This document shows, in pieces, positions 39,498-60,532 of a stretch of 64,000 nt of DNA (within the stretch, counting starts at the first letter, position 1; the number at the start of each line of letters is the position of its first letter). A program made the position numbers and the translations under genes. The notes under the pieces are model-generated. The model made no database searches, was not told the DNA's origin, and saw only the letters and a list, made by a program, of their open reading frames with translations. The DNA is from Candida dubliniensis CD36. Its lineage: Eukaryota > Ascomycota > Pichiomycetes > Serinales > Debaryomycetaceae. The DNA lies in NCBI RefSeq assembly GCF_000026945.1, contig NC_012865.1:868001-932000 (forward strand). The letters are read 5' to 3'.

Positions 39498-42400
39498 CTA
39501 ATAGAATAAAGAAATAGCAGTAAGCAACACATACAACCAGGTTGAATGTTGAGTAATAGAACCAGAACCATCAAATGTAGAAGCTAAAGGCGTGGTGATT
39601 AAGGAACTTGTAGTCTGTTGACTTAATGTAGTCGCTTGAGAGGCTGTGGTGTCAACTCCTTGGCTACTGGTACCCACAGGTGCTCCACCTGTATTAGGTG
39701 GTGATTGATTACCTGGTTCATTATTTCCACCTTGAGTATTAGTGGTAGCTGCAGATCCATGGGAATTACCACCAGTTGTATCATGACCCTTTGTAGTAGC
39801 ACCATTACCTGTATCTGGAATAGCAGCTGTGGCAGTTCCAGTAGCATGTGGAGTAACAATCTTAGTTGAACTTCTTGATCCTGTATTGATACCAGTTTCA
39901 CGTGACGGGTTAACTACAGAACCAGGTTTACCTACCAATGGGGTACCTGTTGTCAAAGCAGGATTTGGATTTATCAGAACACCAATAGCTCCACTCTCAG
40001 TCACCGTATGGGACACAATAGTCGTTGTCCTAGCAATATCAGTCGATTTAGTGTCTGGAATATCTGGTGATCCAGGTACATTCTTGGTGGCTGGTGTTTC
40101 TGCAGATGGTGATTTAGGTGATGGTACACCATTATTTGGAGACCCAGGATTCGAGGGTGCAGTTGGTGATGGACCACCCGGTGTTACTATCTTGCTTGTA
40201 ACAGAACCAGTAGAAGCTAACTCACCAGACTTTGGTTTATCCGTGCCATTATTGCCACCAATAACTGTTGTGGTTGTTGCCGTCGTTGTTGCAGTAGTTC
40301 TTACAACAGAACCTTGTGTAGCAGAAGATTGGCAACCATGTTCGTCATCACAGAAAGTTGTTGATATTGCCACACTTGTTTCACCACTTTCAAAAACAAT
40401 CGAAGACGTGAATCTATCATCATTAGTAAACGTTATCTCATCACTGGAAAGTATATTCACTGATGATGACTGGGAACTAGGTAAGTTGGTAACCGTAGTG
40501 TTTACATAATGTGGACGAGAAAACGAGGAGACAATACTTATCGAGGCTGAAAATGAGGGAACAGATAATATTGAGAATGTGGACTCACTAGATTCATCAC
40601 TTGGACTAGAACGGATTCGGATAATGACACTATTAGTGCCACCTGGTGGGGCAGTAATGGTTGTGGTAGTGTCGTAGGACTGTGACCAAAACTCAGTGGT
40701 AGTAATAGTTGGATTAGGTGGTTCCTTGATAATCACAGTTTCAGTTCCTCCCGGTGGAGCAGTAACAGTGCTAGTACTTGCGTATGACTGTGACCAGTAT
40801 TCAGTAGTGGTAACCGTGTAATTTGGAGGTTCCTTGATGATTACGGTGTCAGTTCCACCTGGTGGACCAGTAACGGTTGTAGTACTTGCATAAGATTGTG
40901 ACCAATACTCAGTGGTTGTGACTGTAAAATTTGGAGGCTCTCTGATTCTTACTGAGTTGGTACCTCCTGGTGGGGCGGTAATGGTGGTGGTGGTAGCATA
41001 GGATTCTGACCAATATTCAGTGGTAGTAACAGTTGGGTTTGGTGGTTCTCTAATGATAACAGTATCTGTACCACCTGGTGGACCAGTAACAGTGGTCGTA
41101 GTTGCATAAGACTGTGACCAGTATTTAGTTGTGGTAACCGTGTAGTTAGGTGGTTCCCTAATGATAACAGTATCAGTGCCACCTGGTGGACCAGTAACAG
41201 TGGTCGTAGTTGCATAAGACTGTGACCAGTATTCAGTTGTAGTTACTGTGTAATTAGGTGGTTCCCTAATGATAACAGTATCAGTGCCACCTGGAGGGGC
41301 AGTAACAGTGGTCGTAGTAGCAAACGATTGTGACCAATATTCAGTTGTAGTTACTGTGTAATTAGGTGGCTCCCTAATGATAACAGTGTCGGTGCCACCT
41401 GGAGGAGCGGTAACAGTGGTCGTAGTTGCATAAGACTGTGACCAGTATTCAGTTGTGGTAACCGTGTAGTTAGGTGGTTCCCTAATGATAACAGTGTCGG
41501 TGCCACCTGGAGGAGCGGTAACAGTGGTCGTAGTTGCATAAGACTGTGACCAGTATTCAGTTGTGGTAACCGTGTAGTTAGGTGGTTCCCTAATGATAAC
41601 AGTATCAGTGCCACCTGGAGGAGCGGTAACAGTGGTCGTAGTTGCATAAGACTGTGACCAGTATTCAGTTGTAGTTACTGTGTAATTAGGTGGTTCCCTA
41701 ATGATAACAGTATCAGTACCACCTGGAGGGGCAGTAACAGTGGTCGTAGTAGCATAAGACTGTGACCAGTATTCAGTTGTAGTTACTGTGTAATTTGGAG
41801 GTTCCCTAATAATCACAGTGTCGGTACCACCTGGAGGGGCAGTAACAGTGGTCGTAGTTGCATAAGACTGTGACCAGTATTCAGTTGTAGTTACTGTGTA
41901 ATTAGGTGGTTCTCTAATAATCACAGTGTCAGTGCCACCTGGTGGGGCAGTAACAGTCGTTGTTGAAGCATATGACTGTGACCAGTATTCAGTAGTAGTA
42001 ACTGTGTAATTAGGTGGCTCTCTGATAATCACAGTATCTGTACCACCTGGAGGAGCAGTAACAGTGGTGGTAGTAGCAAACGATTGTGACCAGTATTCAG
42101 TGGTTGTAACCGTGTAATTAGGTGGTTCCCTAATGATAACAGTATCTGTACCACCTGGTGGACCAGTAATAGTAGTAGTCGAAGCAAACGATTGTGACCA
42201 GTATTCAGTGGTTGTAACCGTGTAATTAGGTGGTTCCCTAATGATAACAGTATCAGTGCCACCTGGAGGGGCAGTAACAGTGGTCGTAGTTGCATAAGAC
42301 TGTGACCAGTATTCAGTTGTAGTTACTGTGTAATTAGGTGGTTCCCTAATGATAACAGTATCTGTACCACCTGGTGGACCAGTAATAGTAGTAGTCGAAG

Positions 42401-45400
42401 CAAACGATTGTGACCAGTATTCAGTGGTTGTAACCGTGTAATTAGGTGGCTCTCTAATAATCACAGTGTCGGTACCACCCGGTGGTGCTGTAGCAGTCGT
42501 GGTTGTAGCATAGGATTGAGACCAGTACTCGGTTGTTGTCACAGTTGGGTTTGGAGGTTCTCCAATAAGGACAATATCGGTTCCACCTGGAGGGGCAGTA
42601 ACAGTGGTGGTTGAAGCATATGACTGTGACCAGTACTCGGTTGTCGTAGCAGTTGGGTTTGGTGGTTCTCTAATTATCACAGTGTCTGTACCACCTGGAG
42701 GAGCGGTAACAGTGGTCGTAGTAGCAAACGATTGTGACCAGTATTCAGTGGTTGTAACCGTGTAATTAGGTGGTTCCCTAATGATAACAGTATCAGTGCC
42801 ACCTGGAGGGGCGGTAACAGTGGTCGTAGTTGCATAAGACTGTGACCAGTATTCAGTTGTAGTTACTGTGTAATTAGGTGGTTCTCTAATAATCACAGTG
42901 TCGGTACCACCCGGTGGTGCTGTAGCAGTCGTGGTTGTAGCATAGGATTGAGACCAGTACTCGGTTGTTGTCACAGTTGGGTTTGGAGGTTCTCTAATTA
43001 TCACAGTGTCTGTACCACCTGGAGGGGCAGTAACAGTGGTGGTAGTAGCAAACGATTGTGACCAGTATTCAGTGGTTGTAACCGTGTAATTAGGTGGTTC
43101 CCTAATGATAACAGTATCAGTGCCACCTGGAGGGGCGGTAACAGTGGTGGTAGTAGCAAACGATTGCGACCAGTATTCAGTTGTAGTTACTGTGTAATTA
43201 GGTGGCTCCCTAATGATCACAGTGTCAGTACCACCTGGAGGGGCGGTAACAGTGGTCGTAGTTGCATAAGACTGTGACCAGTATTCAGTTGTAGTTACTG
43301 TGTAATTAGGTGGTTCTCTAATAATCACAGTGTCAGTGCCACCTGGTGGGGCAGTAACAGTCGTTGTTGAAGCATATGACTGTGACCAGTATTCAGTAGT
43401 AGTAACTGTGTAATTAGGTGGCTCTCTGATAATCACAGTATCTGTACCACCTGGAGGAGCAGTAACAGTGGTGGTAGTAGCAAACGATTGTGACCAGTAT
43501 TCAGTGGTTGTAACCGTGTAATTAGGTGGTTCCCTAATGATAACAGTATCTGTACCACCTGGTGGACCAGTAATAGTAGTAGTCGAAGCAAACGATTGTG
43601 ACCAGTATTCAGTGGTTGTAACCGTGTAATTAGGTGGTTCCCTAATGATAACAGTATCTGTACCACCTGGTGGACCAGTAATAGTAGTAGTCGAAGCAAA
43701 CGATTGTGACCAGTATTCAGTGGTTGTAACCGTGTAATTAGGTGGTTCCCTAATGATAACAGTATCAGTGCCACCTGGAGGGGCAGTAACAGTGGTGGTT
43801 GAAGCATATGACTGTGACCAGTACTCGGTTGTCGTAGCAGTTGGGTTTGGTGGTTCTCTAATTATCACAGTGTCAGTGCCACCTGGAGGGGCAGTAACAG
43901 TGGTGGTCGTGACAAAGGATTGAGACCAGTACTCGGTTGTTGTCACAGTTGGGTTTGGTGGTTCTCTAATTATCACAGTGTCTGTACCACCTGGAGGGGC
44001 AGTAACAGTGGTGGTCGTGACAAAGGATTGAGACCAGTACTCGGTTGTGGTGACAGTTGGGTTTGGTGGTTCCCTAATGATAATCGTATCAGTAGCACCT
44101 GGAGGGCCGGTGACTGTGGTAGTTGTTCCATAGGATTGCGACCAATATTCAGTAGTGGAGACTGTTGGGTTTGGCAGTGGAACTTGTACAACAACTGTAT
44201 CGATTGAACCTGTTGGATTAGTTTGTGTTGTAGTAGTAGTGATTGTTCCTGTCCATTCACTAGTAACAGTTGTGGTAGTGTGATACGGAACATCAACAAT
44301 AACAGTAGCAGTTTGTCCAATTGGTACAGTTTGGGTTCTGTAGGAAGTAGTCACACCAACATATGATGTTGTGATGGTGGTTGTTGGAATGGGTTGTAAA
44401 ACAGCAATTGTTTTGGTTCTGTCAACATCGGAATTGAATGGTAAAGTAGTTACAGCAGTAGTACTATCTGTAACTGTGCTTGTTGTTACGACAATGGTAA
44501 TACCTCTAGAACCAGCCTCGGCATTATCATAGCCAAGCCAATTATAACTAAAAGAAGCATCAACAGGGCGAGCACCAACGCAAGTATACTGATTTGTGTA
44601 TTGCATAGTATATGAGGTGAGCGCAGAAATATAAGCATCAACAAATGGACGATATCCAGCAGGAACATTCTGATAGGTAACCAGAACACCCTTTGATGAA
44701 CAACTTGTTGTATAAGAAAACGACTTCAGCTCTATTGGATAATTCCAATCATTCAAACCATTTGATATCCCCACATGAACAGTAGAACAATCAATAATGG
44801 CATCAGTACCAGCAGTTGAAAACCCCATTGTACCCGAAGAATAACCACTTGCACATCTTGGAGGGATAAAAATAGTTACTGATTTTGCAAGACTGGGTAA
44901 AATTCTTGAAAGTAAGATACGATCATTTGCATTCACATCTGATCTTTGGAAATTAGCAGTTGTAGAAAATGTAGTGTCACCATCGTTAAATGTAACAGTG
45001 TTTGTTCCTTCTTTAAAACATTGGGAACTTGTAATATCAACATCTGAACCTGATCCACCAATATTGAAGGACAATGGTAAAGTTACTGTTCCTAGGGCCT
45101 TAGTTTGAGAATTCAATGCATTACTAACAGTACATTTCAAACTTGAAAAAGTAGTAAACTCTTCTCCAGAATATAAATCACATGTAGCATAAGTACGACC
45201 ATCAGCAACTAAATCAACTGAAGTTTGATCAGTAATAAATTTGAAAACACAAGGCATGTTCAATGTGAATGTGTCACCAGGACTAGCAACAGCTCCATCC
45301 AAAGTCCAACCGATAACAGCATTCCAAGTAGGAGTTGATGGACCTCTATACGGATAAGAAGCAGCATTGGTCCAAGTCAACGAATCAAAACTATGGAAAA

Positions 45401-45467
45401 TGCCTGTAACTACCTTTGCAGTAGCAACTGATAAACAGATGCATAGCAACAAAAATTGTAAAAACAT
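39498..45467 (-). CDS. Agglutinin-like sequence (ALS) cell-wall adhesin, positional counterpart of ALS2
   Basis: The 1989-residue protein starts at the ATG at 45467 and has a signal peptide (residues 1-17, [16 protein letters not shown]). The N-terminal adhesive domain (about 18-330) has eight cysteines after the signal (73, 96, 112, 150, 205, 227, 256, 296) and the invariant peptide-pocket lysine of Als proteins (K76). A Thr-rich T region follows with the amyloid-prone ITIVVTT at 323-329. Then come 33 tandem 36-residue repeats of the TTTEYWSQS...[14 protein letters not shown] type. The C-terminal stalk is Ser/Thr/Asn-rich, and the end is hydrophobic ([15 protein letters not shown]), as needed for a GPI anchor. 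Als proteins bind host and microbial peptides and join cells. The gene lies between SPC105 and PEX11/FLO8, where I recall ALS2 in C. albicans; the sequence is not identical to that protein. Confidence 0.9.
40613..44176 (-). repeat. ALS central tandem repeat, 33 units of 108 bp
   Basis: The 33 in-frame 108 bp units span about 3.56 kb. Units differ mainly at SF/SY, AT/AS/VT, TVTA/TITG and the NY/NP ending of the previous unit. Some blocks of variants are repeated in the same order (see findings), which indicates block duplication. Outer units are more divergent than central ones, as expected from unequal exchange in the middle. Confidence 0.92.
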
Positions 45468-49109: not shown

Positions 49110-51515
49110 ATGTCATTTGACATATTATCAAGATGTTATTTGAATACTTTGAAACAATTCAGGCTACTACTACCTGCAAGATCATTATCCTCAACAACAA
49201 CAACAACAACAACAACAACAACCTCGCTACCCACTTCAAAGGAAAAGATCATATATAAATTGACTGATCAACAAGTGAAGAAATATTATTATCTAATAAA
49301 AATGATTGATCATCAACATCTGTATTTAATCAATGATAATACTGGTACTACTACTAGTACTACTACTACTTCTGGTGATTTGAAATTATTTGATAAGATA
49401 AATTCAGAATGGAAACATAAATCCCAATCAGATCGAAATAGATTAAAAGAAGCATTTGAAAATATTATTTATGATATGAATCAACATAAATCAATTGAAA
49501 TCATTACTGATACTGATACTAATAACAACAAAAAAGATATTAAATGTCAAGAATTTCATATAATGCAATATAAATATAATCAAAATCAAGCTACTGGAGC
49601 TATATTTAGTAGGAAAAAATTATCTATAAATTCAATACTTAAATATTTCATTTATTCTGAAATTAATAACACATATGGAAATGGGAGTAAAATTTGTTTT
49701 TATGAACAAGATAATAATACAAAATTGAAAATTATTAATGAAATAAAACGGAAACGATGGGTTAAACTTTCATCTATACAAAAAAATGAACTTATGAAAC
49801 AATATAATGATTTAATAATGAAAGGATATGAAATTGATGAAAAAAATGATTATCAATTAATTAAAATAAATCATGATAATTTTAATATAATGAGGAAAGT
49901 TGGAGAAGATGATTGTTTCCCTATTACTACTACTACTACTACTACAACCACAACAAAAGAGGGTGGTGGTGGTAATAAAGTGAAATATAACACTAAATGG
50001 CCAACTTTAATAATTAAACATAATTTAACTACAGGATATTGTAAAATTGATGGAGTATCATTATTAGATGGATGTGATTATTATTTATGGAAAAATTTAT
50101 TTAATCAAAATATATATGATTATGAAAAATATCAAATTTTCAAACAAAAATGGATGGAATTAACTCCAATGGAACAATTTCAATATCAACAAGAATATAC
50201 CAATATTTTGAAATCAGGTAAAATATTACTTTTTGGGGAATTACAATCAATTACACCAAAATTAATTGAAGAATCAAATGTTATAAAAATTAAATATTCA
50301 TCAATATGGGGTGAACAATTTAAATCAATAACTTATAAAACTTGTAAAACTTGTAAAACTTCTAAAACTCCAATTAAATTAGATAATTTACGATTTTTAA
50401 TTAATCAAACAGTTGGGAATATAATTATTATTGGAAAGAATAAAAATAACAACAAGAATTTTGATTATGCATGGAATTATTATTTTGCCAAAAGATTAAA
50501 TCAATTACAATTGAATGGTATTACAAGAATAAATGCTATTAATGATAATCATCAATTAATAATAATTAAACAAGAATGGGAAAATATGACACAAGAAGAA
50601 AAATCAAAAATTGATATAGAATATGAAAATTTATTATTATCAGGTAAAGATTATTTAAATGGAGAAATAGTTACCATTAAGAAGAAATTATCATCAATGA
50701 TGATGATGATGATGATGAAGAAGAAGAATAATAATCAAGGTATAAACTTAATTGATGAAATATTTGGACAAGATTTAGTTATTCCATCAAAATCAAGAAG
50801 AGGACCAGGTGGATATAAAGTGAAAACTTCAATACCAGTATTAATTGATCAAAAATCAGGTAAAGGGATATTATTAGATAAAATAGATTTAGTATATGCT
50901 TATAATTATTATTTTGGATTGAAATTAAACAAGTTGAAATTGGGTAATGATTATGATTGTGAAGGTAACCTTAATCGTAATCATCATACTGTGGATAATA
51001 TTTCTCAAATTGAAAATCAATGGATTTTAATGCTGGAAAAAGATAAATTGAAATATAAATCCGATTATGAATCATTATTACGTGATGGGAAAGATATGTT
51101 ACATGGAGAAATAGTTTCATTATGGGAGAAATTTTCTGCTAATAAAACTATATCATCAAAGAAAATAAGTGGTCAAGGATTGAAAAGGGCATTATTCCCC
51201 AAATCAAATATTGATTTTACCGTGAAATTGATATCAAATGATGATGATATTAATAAAGGAATTGATAAGAAATTTGTATTATTTGGAGAATTGAGTGATA
51301 ATAAATTATATCAATATTATAAATATCATAGATTACAAGAAGAAAGTATTACTAATATGGAAAATCATTTACAAACTTTACAAGCAATTAAATCTGAATG
51401 GGATGAAATGAATGAACAAGATAAACAAGAAATACGAAAAGCTTATGAATTATTATTAATATCAGGTAAAGATATTAAAAATAATGAATTAATTGATATT
51501 GATATTGTTAGTTAA
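49110..51515 (+). CDS. Probable mitochondrial protein with six HMG-box-like repeats
   Basis: The 801-residue protein starts at the ATG at 49110. Its N-terminus (RCYLNTLKQFRLLLPARSLSS) is basic and amphipathic, like a mitochondrial presequence, followed by a Thr run (ACA repeat). The rest contains six degenerate copies of a motif with an aromatic cluster (YYF or YYY), a spacer, W..M or W..L, a charged helix with K, Y..LL and then SGKD.L.GE(I/L). The Trp residues are at about 101, 217, 348, 490, 638 and 764. This Y..f/W..(m/l)..eK..y/Y pattern is that of an HMG box, but the basic DNA-contact residues are weak in several copies. HMG-box proteins such as Abf2 or Gcf1 package mitochondrial DNA; a role here is inference. 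No named orthologue is recognised. It stands alone and tandem with PEX11. Confidence 0.6.
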   Translation: MSFDILSRCYLNTLKQFRLLLPARSLSSTTTTTTTTTTSLPTSKEKIIYKLTDQQVKKYYYLIKMIDHQHLYLINDNTGTTTSTTTTSGDLKLFDKINSEWKHKSQSDRNRLKEAFENIIYDMNQHKSIEIITDTDTNNNKKDIKCQEFHIMQYKYNQNQATGAIFSRKKLSINSILKYFIYSEINNTYGNGSKICFYEQDNNTKLKIINEIKRKRWVKLSSIQKNELMKQYNDLIMKGYEIDEKNDYQLIKINHDNFNIMRKVGEDDCFPITTTTTTTTTTKEGGGGNKVKYNTKWPTLIIKHNLTTGYCKIDGVSLLDGCDYYLWKNLFNQNIYDYEKYQIFKQKWMELTPMEQFQYQQEYTNILKSGKILLFGELQSITPKLIEESNVIKIKYSSIWGEQFKSITYKTCKTCKTSKTPIKLDNLRFLINQTVGNIIIIGKNKNNNKNFDYAWNYYFAKRLNQLQLNGITRINAINDNHQLIIIKQEWENMTQEEKSKIDIEYENLLLSGKDYLNGEIVTIKKKLSSMMMMMMMKKKNNNQGINLIDEIFGQDLVIPSKSRRGPGGYKVKTSIPVLIDQKSGKGILLDKIDLVYAYNYYFGLKLNKLKLGNDYDCEGNLNRNHHTVDNISQIENQWILMLEKDKLKYKSDYESLLRDGKDMLHGEIVSLWEKFSANKTISSKKISGQGLKRALFPKSNIDFTVKLISNDDDINKGIDKKFVLFGELSDNKLYQYYKYHRLQEESITNMENHLQTLQAIKSEWDEMNEQDKQEIRKAYELLLISGKDIKNNELIDIDIVS

Positions 51516-52183: not shown

Positions 52184-52900
52184 ATGGTTGCTGATACATT
52201 AATTTATCATCCTACATTAAGTAAATTAATTAAATTTTGGGATTCTACTCCTAAAAGAGAGAAAACTTTTAGATTATTATCATATTTATCAAGATTTCTT
52301 GGTTATTATGCTTATAAAAAAGGTTATTCTAAAGAAACCATTGAATTATGGAGTAATTTAAAAGGTCATTTCACATTTATTAGAAAAGCCATGAGATTTT
52401 TTAAACCAATTAATCATTTACAATTAGCTTCTAAAGCTTATGATAATAAATTAATGGATCCAATTTTACAATTCACTACTATTATTAGAAATTTAGGTTA
52501 TGCTGGTTATTTAACTATTGATGCCATTGTATTTTTCAAATTATTAGGAATTATTGATAAAAAAAAATATCCTAATTTAGGGAAATATGCTTCAAGATTT
52601 TGGTTAATTGGTTTAATTTCTGGGTTAATAAATTCTTTAAGAATTATTTATAGTTTGAATTCTTATGAAAATAATATTGAAAAACAAGGTGAAGAAATTA
52701 ATGAAAAGGAAAAACAAGTTGATATTAATGCTATTAATCAAAAATTATATCAAGCTAAAAGAAAATTGATTTGGGATTCATTAGATACTTTTATTGCATT
52801 GAATTCTTTAGATATTTTACATTTCACTGAAGGTGATGTTGGTTTAGCTGGGGTTATAACTTCATTATTAGGTTTACAAGATTTATGGAAAGCTACTTGA
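52184..52900 (+). CDS. PEX11: Peroxisomal membrane protein Pex11
   Basis: The 238-residue protein starts at the ATG at 52184. The frame is open to 52106, but the extra 26 residues are Pro/Leu-rich, whereas MVADTLIYHPTLSKLIKFWD is exactly the family start. Conserved blocks are TPKREKTFRLLSYLSRFLGY, FIRKAMRFFKPINHLQLASK and a C-terminal GDVGLAGVITSLLGLQDLWK. Amphipathic helices near the N-terminus and a hydrophobic segment near the middle (residues 150-170) fit the known topology. Pex11 elongates and divides peroxisomes, and its level usually rises with fatty-acid growth. It lies head to tail with the HMG-like gene. Confidence 0.95.
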   Translation: MVADTLIYHPTLSKLIKFWDSTPKREKTFRLLSYLSRFLGYYAYKKGYSKETIELWSNLKGHFTFIRKAMRFFKPINHLQLASKAYDNKLMDPILQFTTIIRNLGYAGYLTIDAIVFFKLLGIIDKKKYPNLGKYASRFWLIGLISGLINSLRIIYSLNSYENNIEKQGEEINEKEKQVDINAINQKLYQAKRKLIWDSLDTFIALNSLDILHFTEGDVGLAGVITSLLGLQDLWKAT

Positions 52901-53070: not shown

Positions 53071-53394
53071 TTAACTGCTACTACTATTAGTGCTATTCTT
53101 ATTGGGGTTAGAACATTCATAACCAATATCAAATCCTGCCCAATAATATTTTAGTAGAACATTGGTTAATTCTGTAGATAATTCTTCTACATTTGATTGG
53201 TTATTAATTAGTTGGATTATATTTGGAATATCATTATTCAAGTCTATTTCTGGAGTGGTTTGTTGTTGTTGTTGTTGTTGGGGTGTTGATGAAAATGAAG
53301 GTTTAATAGTATTATCTATTGGTAAATTATGATTAATACTATAAGATTCATATGATTCATACCACTTTGATTCAATCAACTGATCAATTGTCAT
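53071..53394 (-). CDS. Small SMN-like protein (survival of motor neuron family)
   Basis: The 107-residue protein starts at the ATG at 53394 and ends convergent with PEX11. Residues 3-20 (IDQLIESKWYESYESYSI) match the SMN N-terminal Gemin2-binding helix, where an acidic/hydrophobic stretch precedes ALIKAYDKAVASFK in human SMN. Residues 76-95 (LTNVLLKYYWAGFDIGYECS) match the C-terminal YG box, with paired aromatics and the GxxxG glycine spacing (G87, G91) used in self-association. Between them is a polyglutamine and Asp/Asn-rich linker. There is no Tudor domain, as in fission yeast Smn1, which is also very short. SMN with Gemin2 assembles Sm rings on snRNAs. S. cerevisiae lacks SMN, so a homologue in this clade is notable. 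This is a pattern-based assignment. Confidence 0.65.
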   Translation of the reverse strand: MTIDQLIESKWYESYESYSINHNLPIDNTIKPSFSSTPQQQQQQQTTPEIDLNNDIPNIIQLINNQSNVEELSTELTNVLLKYYWAGFDIGYECSNPNKNSTNSSSS

Positions 53395-53655
53395 ACTTAG
53401 AGCATTAGTTATGGGAAGTAAATGGATGATGATAGATTAATAGAAGAAAGTCACTTGACCATTTTTGTAACTTCCCCTTTTGTTGTTCTTCACAGTAAAT
53501 CTCATCTCTCATAATAAGTTTTTTTTTTTTTTTTCATTTTTTTTTTTTTTTTTTTTTTCACTTTTGACAACCAACCAACCAACCAACCAACCAATTTAAT
53601 CAACCTTTTCCTTTCAATTAATCTTTATTTGATTCATTCCAGTACCACCACTACT
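53395..53655. promoter_or_regulatory. Divergent SMN-like/NOP8 promoter
   Basis: The 261 bp between the two start codons contain long T-tracts at about 53519-53559 and an (ACCA)n stretch near 53570-53592. Both genes serve RNA-protein particle assembly, so a shared promoter is plausible but unproven. Confidence 0.5.
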
Positions 53656-55665
53656 ATGACTAACGACTCACCAATAAAGGATCTTAGAATATATATTGGG
53701 AATATATCTCCTAAACTTAAAGAAAATGAACTGAGTTTACTCACAAGAATAGCTAAATATGGAACCATCAAATCATCATTAGAATTTCATACTAAACCTT
53801 TACAATTACATTATTTTGCTTATATAACTATATCTACTACTGATTCTAATTTTAATAATTTAAAGAAATCATTAAATGGAATTTTATTTATGGGGATGAA
53901 ATTAATTATTTCTTTAGCTAAACCCAATTATTTACAAAGATGGAAGAAATCAAATTCCAAATCCAAATCCAAATCAAAATCAAAATCAAAAAATAATAAT
54001 TTTAAACAATTGGAACAATTACGTCGAGATAAAATTGTTGAATCTCGATTAGAAAAAATTCAAGAATATAAAACAAATTATCCTATTAATAATTTCACTT
54101 CAAATTTAATCACTTCATATAATGCTGGATTTAATCAATCAGAAATTTCTCTTCTGGAACATACATTAAATAATAGTTCTGGTAATACCAAAAATCCTCC
54201 ACCAAAACAACGATTAATTGGATCAAAATCATATGGAGCATTAACTAAACCGAAAAAATTCAATGAAAATCGATTTTTATATCGATCAGGTAAAGGTATA
54301 ATTATAAGAGGAGTTCATCGTAAAACTCCAAGACTGAATTTAAAATTAAAACAACAAACTTTAAGAATTTTAATTAATGGAGAATTGAAAACATTTAAAA
54401 ATTATAAAACAAAATTATGGGGGTTTGAAAAAAATAAAACCATAAGAGATTTAACTTGGAGATTTATTAATGGTGAATGGAGATCAGGTGATGATCATAT
54501 AATTGAAAAAGTTACATGTGGAATATCTGGAGAACAAGCAAAAAATTATGGTAAAGATAATCCTATAATAGATGAAGATAAACACAATGGTAGTGATAGT
54601 GCCAGTGCCAGTGCCAGTGCTAGTGCTAGTAATAATAGGGAAGAAATTGATAAAAATAAATCTATATTGGCATCAATGTTTGATTCGTACGATTTTGATA
54701 AACCAATAGAATTAGCAGTAACTGGAAATGATGCTACTACTAATGCAGCAGCAGTAGCAGCAGAAGAAAGTGAAAGTGAAATTGAAATAGATTCTAAAGG
54801 TAGAAAGAAAGCAAAACATTACGATTATGAAATTGAAGGGAAAATATCTGAAGATGAATATGAAGATGTTGAACAGTTTAATAAAATTGATATTCAATCT
54901 GCTAATCAAATTATTGAAAATTATAAACAATCATCAAATATTGTTCCTATTAAAGAAACATATTATGATGAAGATGATGAAGGTAATGAAATTGAATTAG
55001 ATGAATTTAACAACAAATATACTACTGAAGCAATTAAAAACAAATATGATAAAGATCATAAAGAAGAGGAAGAGGAAGAGGAAGAGGAAGAAGAGGAATT
55101 TATTCCAACTTTTGGTGGTGCTCATAAAACCAATGTTAATAATACTGAAACTTTAAGAGCATTATTTAACCCAACCACAATTGAAACTATACAACCAACA
55201 TCATCAACAGAAAATAGTACATCATTTAAACTTGGTTTACAAGATGATGATGAAGATATTGATACAGATAAACAATTGGATAATATTAAACAACAAGAAT
55301 TATACAAAACATTACAACAACAACAACGTCAAAAACAAGAACAAGAACAACAGCAACAAGAAGAAATCAATAATCAACAAAAATTTGGTTTATTTTGGTG
55401 TCATTTTGATTCACCATTTTTATCTACTCAATCACAATTTAGTAAATTAGGATTAACTGGTGGTGGTGGTAGTGGTGGTGGTAATAATGGGAAAATAAAA
55501 TTACCTGGCGAAGAACAAGACGAACAACCAAAAGAAGATAATGATGAGGAAGAATCATTATATGAAAAATGGTTTTGGAGTATGAGAGGAGAGATTTCTC
55601 GGGAATGTAAACGTCGTAAACGTGATTTATTAAGAACTATCCGTAAAAAGAACAAGAAAAATTGA
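53656..55665 (+). CDS. NOP8: Nop8-like nucleolar protein with N-terminal RRM
   Basis: The 669-residue protein is counted from the ATG at 53656; the frame is open upstream only by a few codons without ATG. Residues about 10-95 form an RNA recognition motif, with LRIYIGNISPKLKENEL as the RNP2-like strand and a YFAYITIS strand as a weak RNP1. Then come a Ser/Lys run (SKSKSKSKSK), a mid-region conserved patch (residues ~195-300), and acidic stretches with poly-Glu. The extreme C-terminus, KWFWSMRGEISRECKRRKRD, is the typical C-terminal block of the Nop8 family. In yeast Nop8 acts in 60S ribosomal subunit assembly with Nip7 in the nucleolus. It is divergent from the SMN-like gene. Confidence 0.82.
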   Translation: MTNDSPIKDLRIYIGNISPKLKENELSLLTRIAKYGTIKSSLEFHTKPLQLHYFAYITISTTDSNFNNLKKSLNGILFMGMKLIISLAKPNYLQRWKKSNSKSKSKSKSKSKNNNFKQLEQLRRDKIVESRLEKIQEYKTNYPINNFTSNLITSYNAGFNQSEISLLEHTLNNSSGNTKNPPPKQRLIGSKSYGALTKPKKFNENRFLYRSGKGIIIRGVHRKTPRLNLKLKQQTLRILINGELKTFKNYKTKLWGFEKNKTIRDLTWRFINGEWRSGDDHIIEKVTCGISGEQAKNYGKDNPIIDEDKHNGSDSASASASASASNNREEIDKNKSILASMFDSYDFDKPIELAVTGNDATTNAAAVAAEESESEIEIDSKGRKKAKHYDYEIEGKISEDEYEDVEQFNKIDIQSANQIIENYKQSSNIVPIKETYYDEDDEGNEIELDEFNNKYTTEAIKNKYDKDHKEEEEEEEEEEEEFIPTFGGAHKTNVNNTETLRALFNPTTIETIQPTSSTENSTSFKLGLQDDDEDIDTDKQLDNIKQQELYKTLQQQQRQKQEQEQQQQEEINNQQKFGLFWCHFDSPFLSTQSQFSKLGLTGGGGSGGGNNGKIKLPGEEQDEQPKEDNDEEESLYEKWFWSMRGEISRECKRRKRDLLRTIRKKNKKN

Positions 55666-58024: not shown

Positions 58025-60532
58025 TTAATCTCCATTTTCAATTGGATCTGCAGCCCAATTCATTCCCATGAAATTATCATCATCAGTACCACCAGTACCA
58101 CCACCTGAACCTGAACCAGTGCCAGTAATATCTCCACCTGGTCCAGTAGTTGTCCAAATATCATCAAGACTATCAATATTAAAATTAATATCAAATCCAT
58201 GAGTCGAATCACCAAATACCAGATTATTGACACCAATTCCTGAACCACCACTTACACTAAGATTATTACTACCATTTGAAAGATGATGATTACGATCACT
58301 ATTGTTGTCGTCATTGTTTTGGTGGTGATGGTGGTGATGTTGTTGTTGTTGTTGTGTAGTATCTAATAAATGAACATCAAATGGATCATTGTTAAATGTA
58401 TTGGACATAGAAGTGGCTTGAGTTGGTGCCATCGGTGGATTCAAATCTAGATCTTGATCTTGTAATGAAGTTGAAGACTCTTTTTTCATAGATAATACTC
58501 CATTATCTTCTTCTTTGATTATAGGATCCAAGTTCTTAGAATTACTATTAATTTTAGGTTGTTTCTTTGGTGAATTACCATTACTATTTTCATTATTATC
58601 ATTCAATTTACCTGATTTACGCTTCTTTTTAGTGGTTTCACCACTAATTGGTTCAGAACGAGGTGTCAATGGTTGGAAATCTTTCTTACCCATACTTGGA
58701 GTATTAGAACCTGGACGTTGCTGTTGTTGCTTGTCTTGTAATTGACGCATTTGATCTGCCGGTTGTGGTTGCTTTTGCTCCGTGCCAGCACTAGGAGGTT
58801 GTGATATGATTGGGGTTGTTTGTCCAGATGCTTTATTACTTCCTGCTATAGAAGCATTTGAATTGCCCTTTTTACTCTTTTTATTAGTAGATTCTTTCTT
58901 TGATTTCTTATTACTCATTGCTGGTGATGACTTATTACCTAATGCAGGTGAATTGTTAGATGTTGCCGGTGAGGGCTTTTGATTGAATTGTCCTTGTCCT
59001 TGAGATCCATTGGCAATTGTTGCTGATGTTGGTGGTGGTGGCGGCGGATGGAAAGTTGCTGGTGTTGGTTGCTGTTGATTAGGAGGAAGTTGATTGGAAT
59101 ATTGATTTTGATTTTGATTTTGATTTTGACCAGCAAACATCATTCCATTAGTCAATGGATTAGGATCGGAATTAACAGAGTTTCTAGCAAATTCTAATCT
59201 CTCTTTATTTTGTCTTTCTAATAACATTAATTGATTCTGATAATCTCGTAGAGCATTATTGTTTCTGCCACTACTATTACTACTATTACCATTCGACATT
59301 TGACCATTCTTTTTCATTCCTTGAGATCCAACCAGTTTATTCATATGTTTCTGTTGCTGTTGTTGATTCTGGAAATTGTGTTGAGCTTGGGTCTGACCTT
59401 GCTGCGAAGGATGTGGATGTGGCAGTGGGGCAGGTGCAGCATTTTGTTGTGGAGTTGGTTGTTGATTTGATCTTGTACCAACTGGAGAATTATTCTTCAG
59501 AGATGAATCACCCATTGCTGATACTAAATTGTTTTGCAATTGATTCTGTTGTTGCTGCTGTTGTTGCTGCTGAGCAACCAATGCTGCTTGTTGACGCAAA
59601 TTGTTCATTTGATTTTGTGCTTGTTGTTGGAAAGTGGTTTTAGGTTGTTGCTGTTGCTGTTGTTGTTGTTGTTGTTGTTGTTGCAAAAATAGTTGTTGTT
59701 GCAAATTCAAATTATTAGGCCCACCACCCACAGCATTCATCATTTGTTGTTGTTGTTGAGGATCTAAACCATTCATAGGGATTTGTTGTCTTTGTGCTGC
59801 TATTGCTTGTTGTTTCATCATCATTGCCATTCTTTGTTGTTGTTCAATTGAAGGCTGATTTTGACCATTTGGCATTTGCGCAAATTGTTGGTTCATAGGG
59901 AACATTTGTTGTTGTGGATTTTGATTTGGTGGCATATTGATAGGGAAATTAGCACTAGTTGCTGAACCTGGAGGTTGAGGGGTTTGTCCGGGTCCTTGAG
60001 GTTGACCTTGATGCTGTGGTGGGAATTGATGTTGTTGGTTTTGCATACCACTAGCAGCAACACCAATTCCTCTTTGTTGGAAAGGCTGTCCTTGTCCTTG
60101 TCCTTGCTGTCCCTGTTGTTGTTGAAAATGTTGTTGTTGTTGTTGCTGCTGCACAAGTGGAAATTGAGTCAAAATATGTTTTTGAGCTTCTTGAATTCGA
60201 AGATAATCATGATAAAGTTTATTGTTAGGGTTATTGTTACTATTACCATCTCCATATCTGACTTGAAATAAATCAAAGAAAACTTGCCACCATTCTAATA
60301 AAAATCCTTGAGAACAATCCATCAAGGGAGGAATTGATGGTAAATTAGGACTTTCTTTAGAAAATGCTTTTGCAGTATCTTGAAATTGATGTTTAACCAA
60401 AAAATCCAAAATTAACGAATTCAAAACTTGTTTAGTTGTGTTGGGAACCATAAGATTGGATGATGAAGGAGTTGCTGTTGTTGTTGTTGTTGATGTCGGT
60501 TCATTCTCTGGTAGTACTTGTTTATGATTCAT
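58025..60532 (-). CDS. FLO8: Transcription regulator Flo8
   Basis: The 835-residue protein is counted from the ATG at 60532; the frame is open three codons further but without ATG. A LisH/LUFS motif at about residues 35-67 (VLNSLILDFLVKHQFQDTAK) is followed by a conserved block, LLEWWQVFFDLFQVRYGDG. Much of the rest is Gln/Asn/Pro-rich with several CAG/CAA-encoded polyglutamine runs, and there are Lys-rich segments (KKSKKESTNKKSKKG) that may localise it to the nucleus. The C-terminus is acidic and Gly-rich, consistent with an activation region. Flo8 acts downstream of the cAMP-PKA pathway to control filamentous growth and adhesins in Candida. Its upstream region is long, as expected for a highly regulated gene. 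Confidence 0.93.
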   Translation of the reverse strand: MNHKQVLPENEPTSTTTTTATPSSSNLMVPNTTKQVLNSLILDFLVKHQFQDTAKAFSKESPNLPSIPPLMDCSQGFLLEWWQVFFDLFQVRYGDGNSNNNPNNKLYHDYLRIQEAQKHILTQFPLVQQQQQQQHFQQQQGQQGQGQGQPFQQRGIGVAASGMQNQQHQFPPQHQGQPQGPGQTPQPPGSATSANFPINMPPNQNPQQQMFPMNQQFAQMPNGQNQPSIEQQQRMAMMMKQQAIAAQRQQIPMNGLDPQQQQQMMNAVGGGPNNLNLQQQLFLQQQQQQQQQQQQQPKTTFQQQAQNQMNNLRQQAALVAQQQQQQQQQNQLQNNLVSAMGDSSLKNNSPVGTRSNQQPTPQQNAAPAPLPHPHPSQQGQTQAQHNFQNQQQQQKHMNKLVGSQGMKKNGQMSNGNSSNSSGRNNNALRDYQNQLMLLERQNKERLEFARNSVNSDPNPLTNGMMFAGQNQNQNQNQYSNQLPPNQQQPTPATFHPPPPPPTSATIANGSQGQGQFNQKPSPATSNNSPALGNKSSPAMSNKKSKKESTNKKSKKGNSNASIAGSNKASGQTTPIISQPPSAGTEQKQPQPADQMRQLQDKQQQQRPGSNTPSMGKKDFQPLTPRSEPISGETTKKKRKSGKLNDNNENSNGNSPKKQPKINSNSKNLDPIIKEEDNGVLSMKKESSTSLQDQDLDLNPPMAPTQATSMSNTFNNDPFDVHLLDTTQQQQQHHHHHHQNNDDNNSDRNHHLSNGSNNLSVSGGSGIGVNNLVFGDSTHGFDINFNIDSLDDIWTTTGPGGDITGTGSGSGGGTGGTDDDNFMGMNWAADPIENGD

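Follow-up and report, generated by a model that had tools for sequence, protein, structure and literature searches.

Spinal muscular atrophy results from loss of the SMN protein. Has the Candida albicans group of budding yeasts kept this protein? The question is raised by a short open reading frame (ORF) encoding 107 amino acids at positions 53071..53394, on the minus strand of a 64,000-nucleotide stretch of Candida dubliniensis CD36 DNA (contig NC_012865.1), referred to here as the window. An earlier note had read this ORF as a minimal SMN that the clade retains, and the background on which it relied is borne out by the extracts of the literature used here: SMN is described as lost from budding yeast (PMC8287954), Saccharomyces cerevisiae has the Gemin2 homologue Brr1 and no SMN (PMC6954390; PMC8287954), and fungal SMN proteins hold just a Gemin2-binding helix and a YG box, with no Tudor domain (PMC8287954). 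On the present analysis, the best explanation of the gene is that its product is a minimal SMN-like protein devoid of a Tudor domain, and probably the SMN orthologue. We observed the ORF itself, its conservation in C. albicans, its motif matches and a Gemin2 gene in the same genome. Because a significant match to a profile hidden Markov model (HMM) is absent, the assignment to SMN rests on profile-profile comparison, position-specific scores, the layout of the protein and this partner gene; the minimal-SMN interpretation is thus supported in part.

A 107-residue gene conserved in C. albicans

The ORF runs from an ATG at 53394-53392 to a stop codon at 53073-53071, contains no CTG codons, and is translated identically with tables 1 and 12. 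Its length and its C-terminal end (...KYYWAGFDIGYECSNPNKNSTNSSSS) are as the earlier note had described them and, as also noted there, the Pfam profiles reported no Tudor domain in it. AlphaFold2, run with a 3-sequence alignment, predicted helices at residues 3-21, 52-64, 69-89 and 97-100 with a mean predicted local distance difference test (pLDDT) value of 65.2, and a Foldseek search with this model returned a single, meaningless match. The N-terminal segment of residues 2-24 (TIDQLIESKWYESYESYSINHNL; 53323..53391, minus strand) is a candidate Gemin2-binding helix, judged by an ungapped MAFFT match, a position-specific scoring matrix (PSSM) and the predicted helix 3-21. It is followed by a linker of variable length with a polyglutamine (poly-Q) tract at residues 39-45 (53260..53280, minus strand), and by the YG-box-like C-terminal segment at residues 76-95 (LTNVLLKYYWAGFDIGYECS; 53110..53169, minus strand), which was recognized by hhalign against fungal SMN proteins, by PSSM and by a pattern search of the genome. 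Within this last segment lies the codon of Ile90 (ATT; 53125..53127, minus strand), which aligns with Thr138 of Schizosaccharomyces pombe and Thr274 of human SMN.

A protein search with the ORF (P0001) yielded 3 relatives among 4 candidates, namely P0002 from ENA (95% identical), P0003 from C. albicans WO-1 (76% by BLAST) and P0004, which covers the N-terminal part only. Since the search requires shared exact 5-residue words, distant relatives would be expected to escape it. Compared with C. albicans, 29 of 31 residues are identical over positions 1-31 and 46 of 53 over positions 47-99, whereas the middle (residues 32-46) keeps 8 of 15 and changes in length at the poly-Q tract, as it does among P0001, P0002 and P0003. 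Conserved ends around a variable middle are what one would see if both ends were functional and the part between them served as a flexible connection. Both motifs are therefore conserved in a close species, in line with the earlier note. Its wider statement, that the clade keeps SMN, stands in part, its basis being C. albicans and two near-identical entries rather than a wider sample of CUG yeasts. The same can be said of its remark that so short a gene is easily missed by annotation: the gene is present in the C. albicans WO-1 annotation, under the name 'conserved hypothetical protein'.

Three further explanations were rejected. The ORF is not a pseudogene, as its frame is intact and both ends are nearly unchanged between species, and it is not a random ORF, as its relative is annotated in C. 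albicans. Nor does it belong to a longer gene that would join further domains: the convergent neighbour PEX11 (52184..52900, plus strand; PF05648, E 1.5e-75) ends 170 bp from the stop of the ORF, which leaves no room for further domains, and upstream of the ATG an in-frame stop is met at the 15th codon.

Similarity to fungal SMN proteins

The YG box has been defined, in the extract of PMC8287938 used here, as YxxGYxxGYxxG, and the C-terminus of the window ORF reads YxxGFxxGYxxS, with two of the three glycines, a Phe replacing the second Tyr, and a last position that is Cys in C. albicans. When the 3 Candida-type sequences were compared by hhalign with 18 fungal SMN proteins, the alignment was located exactly at the YG box (score 26.0, P 0.0007, probability 26%), a score reached by none of 400 column shuffles (mean 11.0, maximum 19.9). 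For position-specific scoring, matrices were derived from 173 fungal proteins, which gave 27 distinct YG-box and 91 distinct Gemin2-helix segments, with pseudocount weights that were the analyst's single choice; the comparison set comprised 327 ORFs, each starting with ATG and 60 or more codons long, from the window and 200 kb of one contig, with the window ORF among them. By the YG-box matrix alone the window ORF ranked second (10.7, after a 291-aa ORF at 10.8), and its score was matched by 5 of 20000 shuffles of its own C-terminus (3 of 20000 for C. albicans). By the Gemin2-helix matrix it ranked first, its score being matched by 132 of 20000 shuffles of its own N-terminus (26 of 20000 for C. 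albicans). The joint score of both ends placed it first with 18.5 against 4.3 for the next ORF, and this value was reached by 1 of 20000 shuffles of its own ends, while the C. albicans protein scored 25.4, which none of 20000 shuffles reached. An SMN signal above background is thus borne out for the YG box by both kinds of comparison. The genome (14.6 Mb, 8 contigs) was also scanned with a degenerate DNA pattern for the YG core, approximately Y-aromatic-[AS]-G-[FY]-x-x-G-aromatic, which lets through Cys, TTG Leu and TAG as well and does not cover AGY Ser. This pattern has 2 occurrences, the second being in a stop-to-stop frame of just 55 codons.

In general plan the protein resembles Smn1 (Yab8p, 152 aa) of S. 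pombe, which is likewise short and Tudor-free and has an unstructured middle between an N-terminal Gemin2-binding helix and a C-terminal YG box, for both of which the window ORF has candidate segments; a Gemin2 gene is present here too. The PSSM register sets residues 125-143 of S. pombe Smn1 on residues 77-95 of the window ORF and thereby pairs, in the order window to S. pombe, Y84 with Y132, A86 with A134, G87 with G135 and G91 with G139 as identical residues, and F88 with Y136, I90 with T138, Y92 with L140 and S95 with G143 as changed ones. The third YG-box glycine is accordingly a Ser, as had been proposed from the sequence (Cys in C. albicans); in the MAFFT register a one-residue gap after G91 brings C94 opposite G143 instead. 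According to the extract of PMC8287954, this glycine is dispensable in S. pombe, where G143V is viable. Further differences from Smn1 are the shorter length (107 versus 152 aa), W131 replaced by Tyr, S130 by Lys and T138 by Ile (Thr in C. albicans), a helix start that reads TID in place of WDD, and an additional predicted helix at residues 52-64. The SMN proteins of filamentous ascomycetes (Neurospora, Fusarium, Trichoderma) are similar in the YG core (LLMSWYYAGYYTGL versus VLLKYYWAGFDTGY) and in the N-terminal segment (SWNEALDEYKKYHSI versus KWYEAYESYSINHNL), where MAFFT sets the C. albicans residues on those of P0009 ungapped, with W, E, A, Y and H in common. Overall identity to them is low, and the SWYYAGYYTGLYEG block, nearly invariant in 120 proteins, is much changed in the window ORF.

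A Gemin2 gene is clear in the genome (SIP1, PF04938, E 6.7e-37, C7:254601-255176). Its protein, P0125 of 225 aa, matches SIP1 with E 1.6e-38 over residues 28-219 and gives a weak direct match to residues 184-275 of human Gemin2 (E 0.024-0.059); the gene lies at L001:1420-2097, and two of its codons are CTG, which code 12 reads as Ser. S. cerevisiae is likewise a budding yeast with a Gemin2-type protein; the difference is that SMN is stated to be lost there, while this genome would have both partners. A single-sequence AlphaFold2 model of this Gemin2 was of no use (pLDDT 35.6). We take human SMN Asp44 to pair with Gemin2 Arg213, and the aligned positions are apparently Tyr12 and a Gln; both sides would then have changed, which is a lead rather than a test. 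A Voldacs/pICln-type match was also seen (C2:654382, 33.6 bits with its neighbours); it may represent a Lot5-type protein and was therefore given no weight.

Several results weigh against the assignment to SMN. The Pfam SMN models PF20635 and PF20636 gave no match to the window ORF. HMMs built from fungal SMN proteins were not significant, with E values, calculated for 6000 proteins, of 3.1-63 (YG box only), 6.1-190 (Gemin2 helix) and 3.6-24 (full length), and when the C. albicans protein was shuffled block-wise 5000 times, its own score was matched 98 times with the YG HMM, 12 times with the Gemin2-helix HMM and 808 times with the full-length HMM. In addition, the HMMER match of the Gemin2 helix lies in another register than the one on which MAFFT and PSSM agree. 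Finally, the serine motif SxxxSWxxSxxxT, which is placed inside the YG domain in the extract of PMC8287938, is not found, the aligned window residues being N78, K82, Y83, A86 and I90. The HMM search that the earlier note had proposed thus returned no SMN match. The Pfam SMN models are insensitive, as S. pombe Smn1 itself scored 15.4 and 16.0 bits against them, under the cut-offs of 21.3 and 22.2, respectively, and we think that the YG HMM is too narrow and that the full-length HMM is dominated by the acidic linker. Searching the genome with the Pfam SMN YG box, Gemin2-binding domain (PF20636) and Gemin7 models gave no match, and 14 control genomes were equally silent, so this result is uninformative. 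Among the best 120 of 1659 proteins (5923 candidates) in a search for fungal SMN proteins, the named entries were from filamentous ascomycetes and fission yeasts, with no budding yeast. For the C-terminus, therefore, the proposed fit to the YG box stands above background by hhalign and PSSM and finds no significant match with Pfam or HMMER; for the N-terminus, the likeness to the Gemin2-binding helix is favoured by the first rank in PSSM scoring, while PF20636 is silent and the HMMER register differs. Because the serine motif is lacking and the outcomes for both segments are mixed, we classify the protein as an SMN-like variant and not as a proven member of the family.

Alternative explanations

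The same facts could be read as those of a small protein that is confined to the C. albicans group and serves a different function, the likeness of its ends to SMN being due to chance or to convergence of amphipathic helices rich in aromatic residues and glycine. That relatives were found in the C. albicans group only (the 3 among 4 candidates), that no curated profile scored above its cut-off and that the full-length SMN HMM scored within the range of shuffles (808 of 5000) all fit such a protein. The restricted distribution is, however, what a search by exact 5-residue words is expected to return whenever relatives are distant, and chance or convergence would have to reproduce the order, the spacing and the position of both motifs of fungal SMN, the first rank in joint score with a wide gap to the next of 327 ORFs, and this in a genome where Gemin2 is present. 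We consider this explanation rather unlikely, while leaving it real weight.

Another possibility is that residues ~28-92 are a remnant of a RabGAP-TBC domain (PF00566), covering the stretch from motif A to motif B; we take motif A to be IxxDxxR, with the Arg finger, and motif B to be GYxQG, with the Gln finger in YxQ. Here the HMM evidence, which again counts against SMN, is the stronger: PF00566 gave E values of 0.0024, 0.042 and 0.002 (18.0, 14.0 and 18.3 bits) for P0001, P0002 and P0003, an HMM for which 9 of the genome's 11 TBC matches were used gave 0.018-0.039 for the same proteins, the C. albicans protein with its 12.5 bits outscored all 5000 of its shuffles (the best of which had 12.1), and the TBC HMM outdid every SMN HMM. 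Yet the highest Pfam score, 18.3 bits, is below the cut-off of 25.2 bits, and in P0001 the alignment covers 65 residues (28-92) of a model of 216 positions. The greater part of the domain is absent and could not be accommodated in the 170 bp before the PEX11 stop, and both catalytic fingers are replaced, N54 standing for the Arg and Cys94 being the residue two after Tyr92. The N-terminal helix, which is as conserved as the C-terminus, would be left unexplained. When the two families were compared by the same means, hhalign favoured SMN (26.0 versus 19.3 for TBC, whose null maximum in 400 shuffles was 20.5), and in one PSSM method the YG-box scores were matched by 6, 1 and 4 of 20000 shuffles for P0001, P0002 and P0003 against 43, 103 and 345 for motif B, the matrix of which was derived from 8 of 9 TBC stretches. 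The resemblance is between L..VL..Y....D.GY and the segment before motif B, and we hold that it is mostly the shared string L..VL..Y....GY. A TBC remnant is therefore regarded as very improbable.

Neighbouring genes and the proposed self-association surface

On its other side the SMN-like ORF is separated by a divergent intergenic region of 261 bp (53395..53655) from the start of a 669-aa ORF (53656..55665, plus strand). The N-terminus of this neighbour appears RRM-like by eye; its identity is unconfirmed, as no Pfam family matched at E<=1 and PDB gave one chance match (E 0.68). The earlier proposal of a nucleolar ribonucleoprotein gene is thus not confirmed, although the ORF may resemble Nop8, and of the proposed shared promoter what was seen is the divergent arrangement with its 261-bp gap. 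Elsewhere in the window, an 801-aa ORF (49110-51515, plus strand) begins with what resembles a mitochondrial targeting sequence, and the pattern W..(M/L)(T/E)..(E/D)K....Y..LL.SGKD...GE, HMG-box-like by eye, recurs in it several times; it matched no Pfam family above the cut-off and nothing in PDB at E<=0.1. A 1989-aa ORF (39498-45467, minus strand) carries a long tandem array of Thr-rich repeats of ~36 residues and looks like an ALS-type adhesin. An 835-aa ORF (58025-60532, minus strand) is Q-rich, has a LisH-like segment in its N-terminal part and resembles FLO8.

If the SMN-like protein is an SMN, its N-terminal helix (residues ~3-21) would occupy the groove of the Gemin2 encoded at L001:1420-2097, and its YG-box helix (residues ~69-92) would dimerize by the glycine zipper Y-x-x-G-F-x-x-G-Y, the poly-Q linker merely tethering the two ends. 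By analogy, the SMN-Gemin2 dimer would present Sm proteins to small nuclear RNA and so chaperone Sm-ring assembly. Homology to SMN is itself inferred, as are Gemin2 binding, dimerization and a function in small nuclear ribonucleoproteins. Of the S. pombe residues S130, A134 and T138, the window ORF retains only the Ala, and the C. albicans protein retains the Ala and the Thr; S130 is replaced by Lys and T138 by Ile, position 90 being Thr in both P0002 and P0003. As given in the extract of PMC8287954, S130Q, A134Q and T138I impair oligomerization and growth in S. pombe, T138I does not complement the smn1 deletion, and human T274 is a spinal-muscular-atrophy site for which T274I is named. With two of the three self-association residues replaced, the protein may be dimer-only. 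In S. pombe, obligate GCN4 dimers did not replace the YG box, so that the function would have to include more than dimerization; an SMN of this kind may either act in dimeric form or have altered partner surfaces. That the C. albicans group keeps a true SMN devoid of the higher-order assembly surface, a natural and working dimer-only SMN-Gemin2 machine halfway between fission-yeast SMN and the SMN-less S. cerevisiae, is a tentative and somewhat doubtful proposal.

Among the titles and openings of abstracts listed in the literature searches, none reports an SMN in Candida, which does not show its absence from print. If the assignment is true, the loss of SMN would be placed within Saccharomycotina, and a minimal Candida SMN would agree with the good conservation of Gemin2 in this genome. 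It would also provide a natural test of whether SMN works without the tetramer surface that is affected by some spinal-muscular-atrophy mutations.
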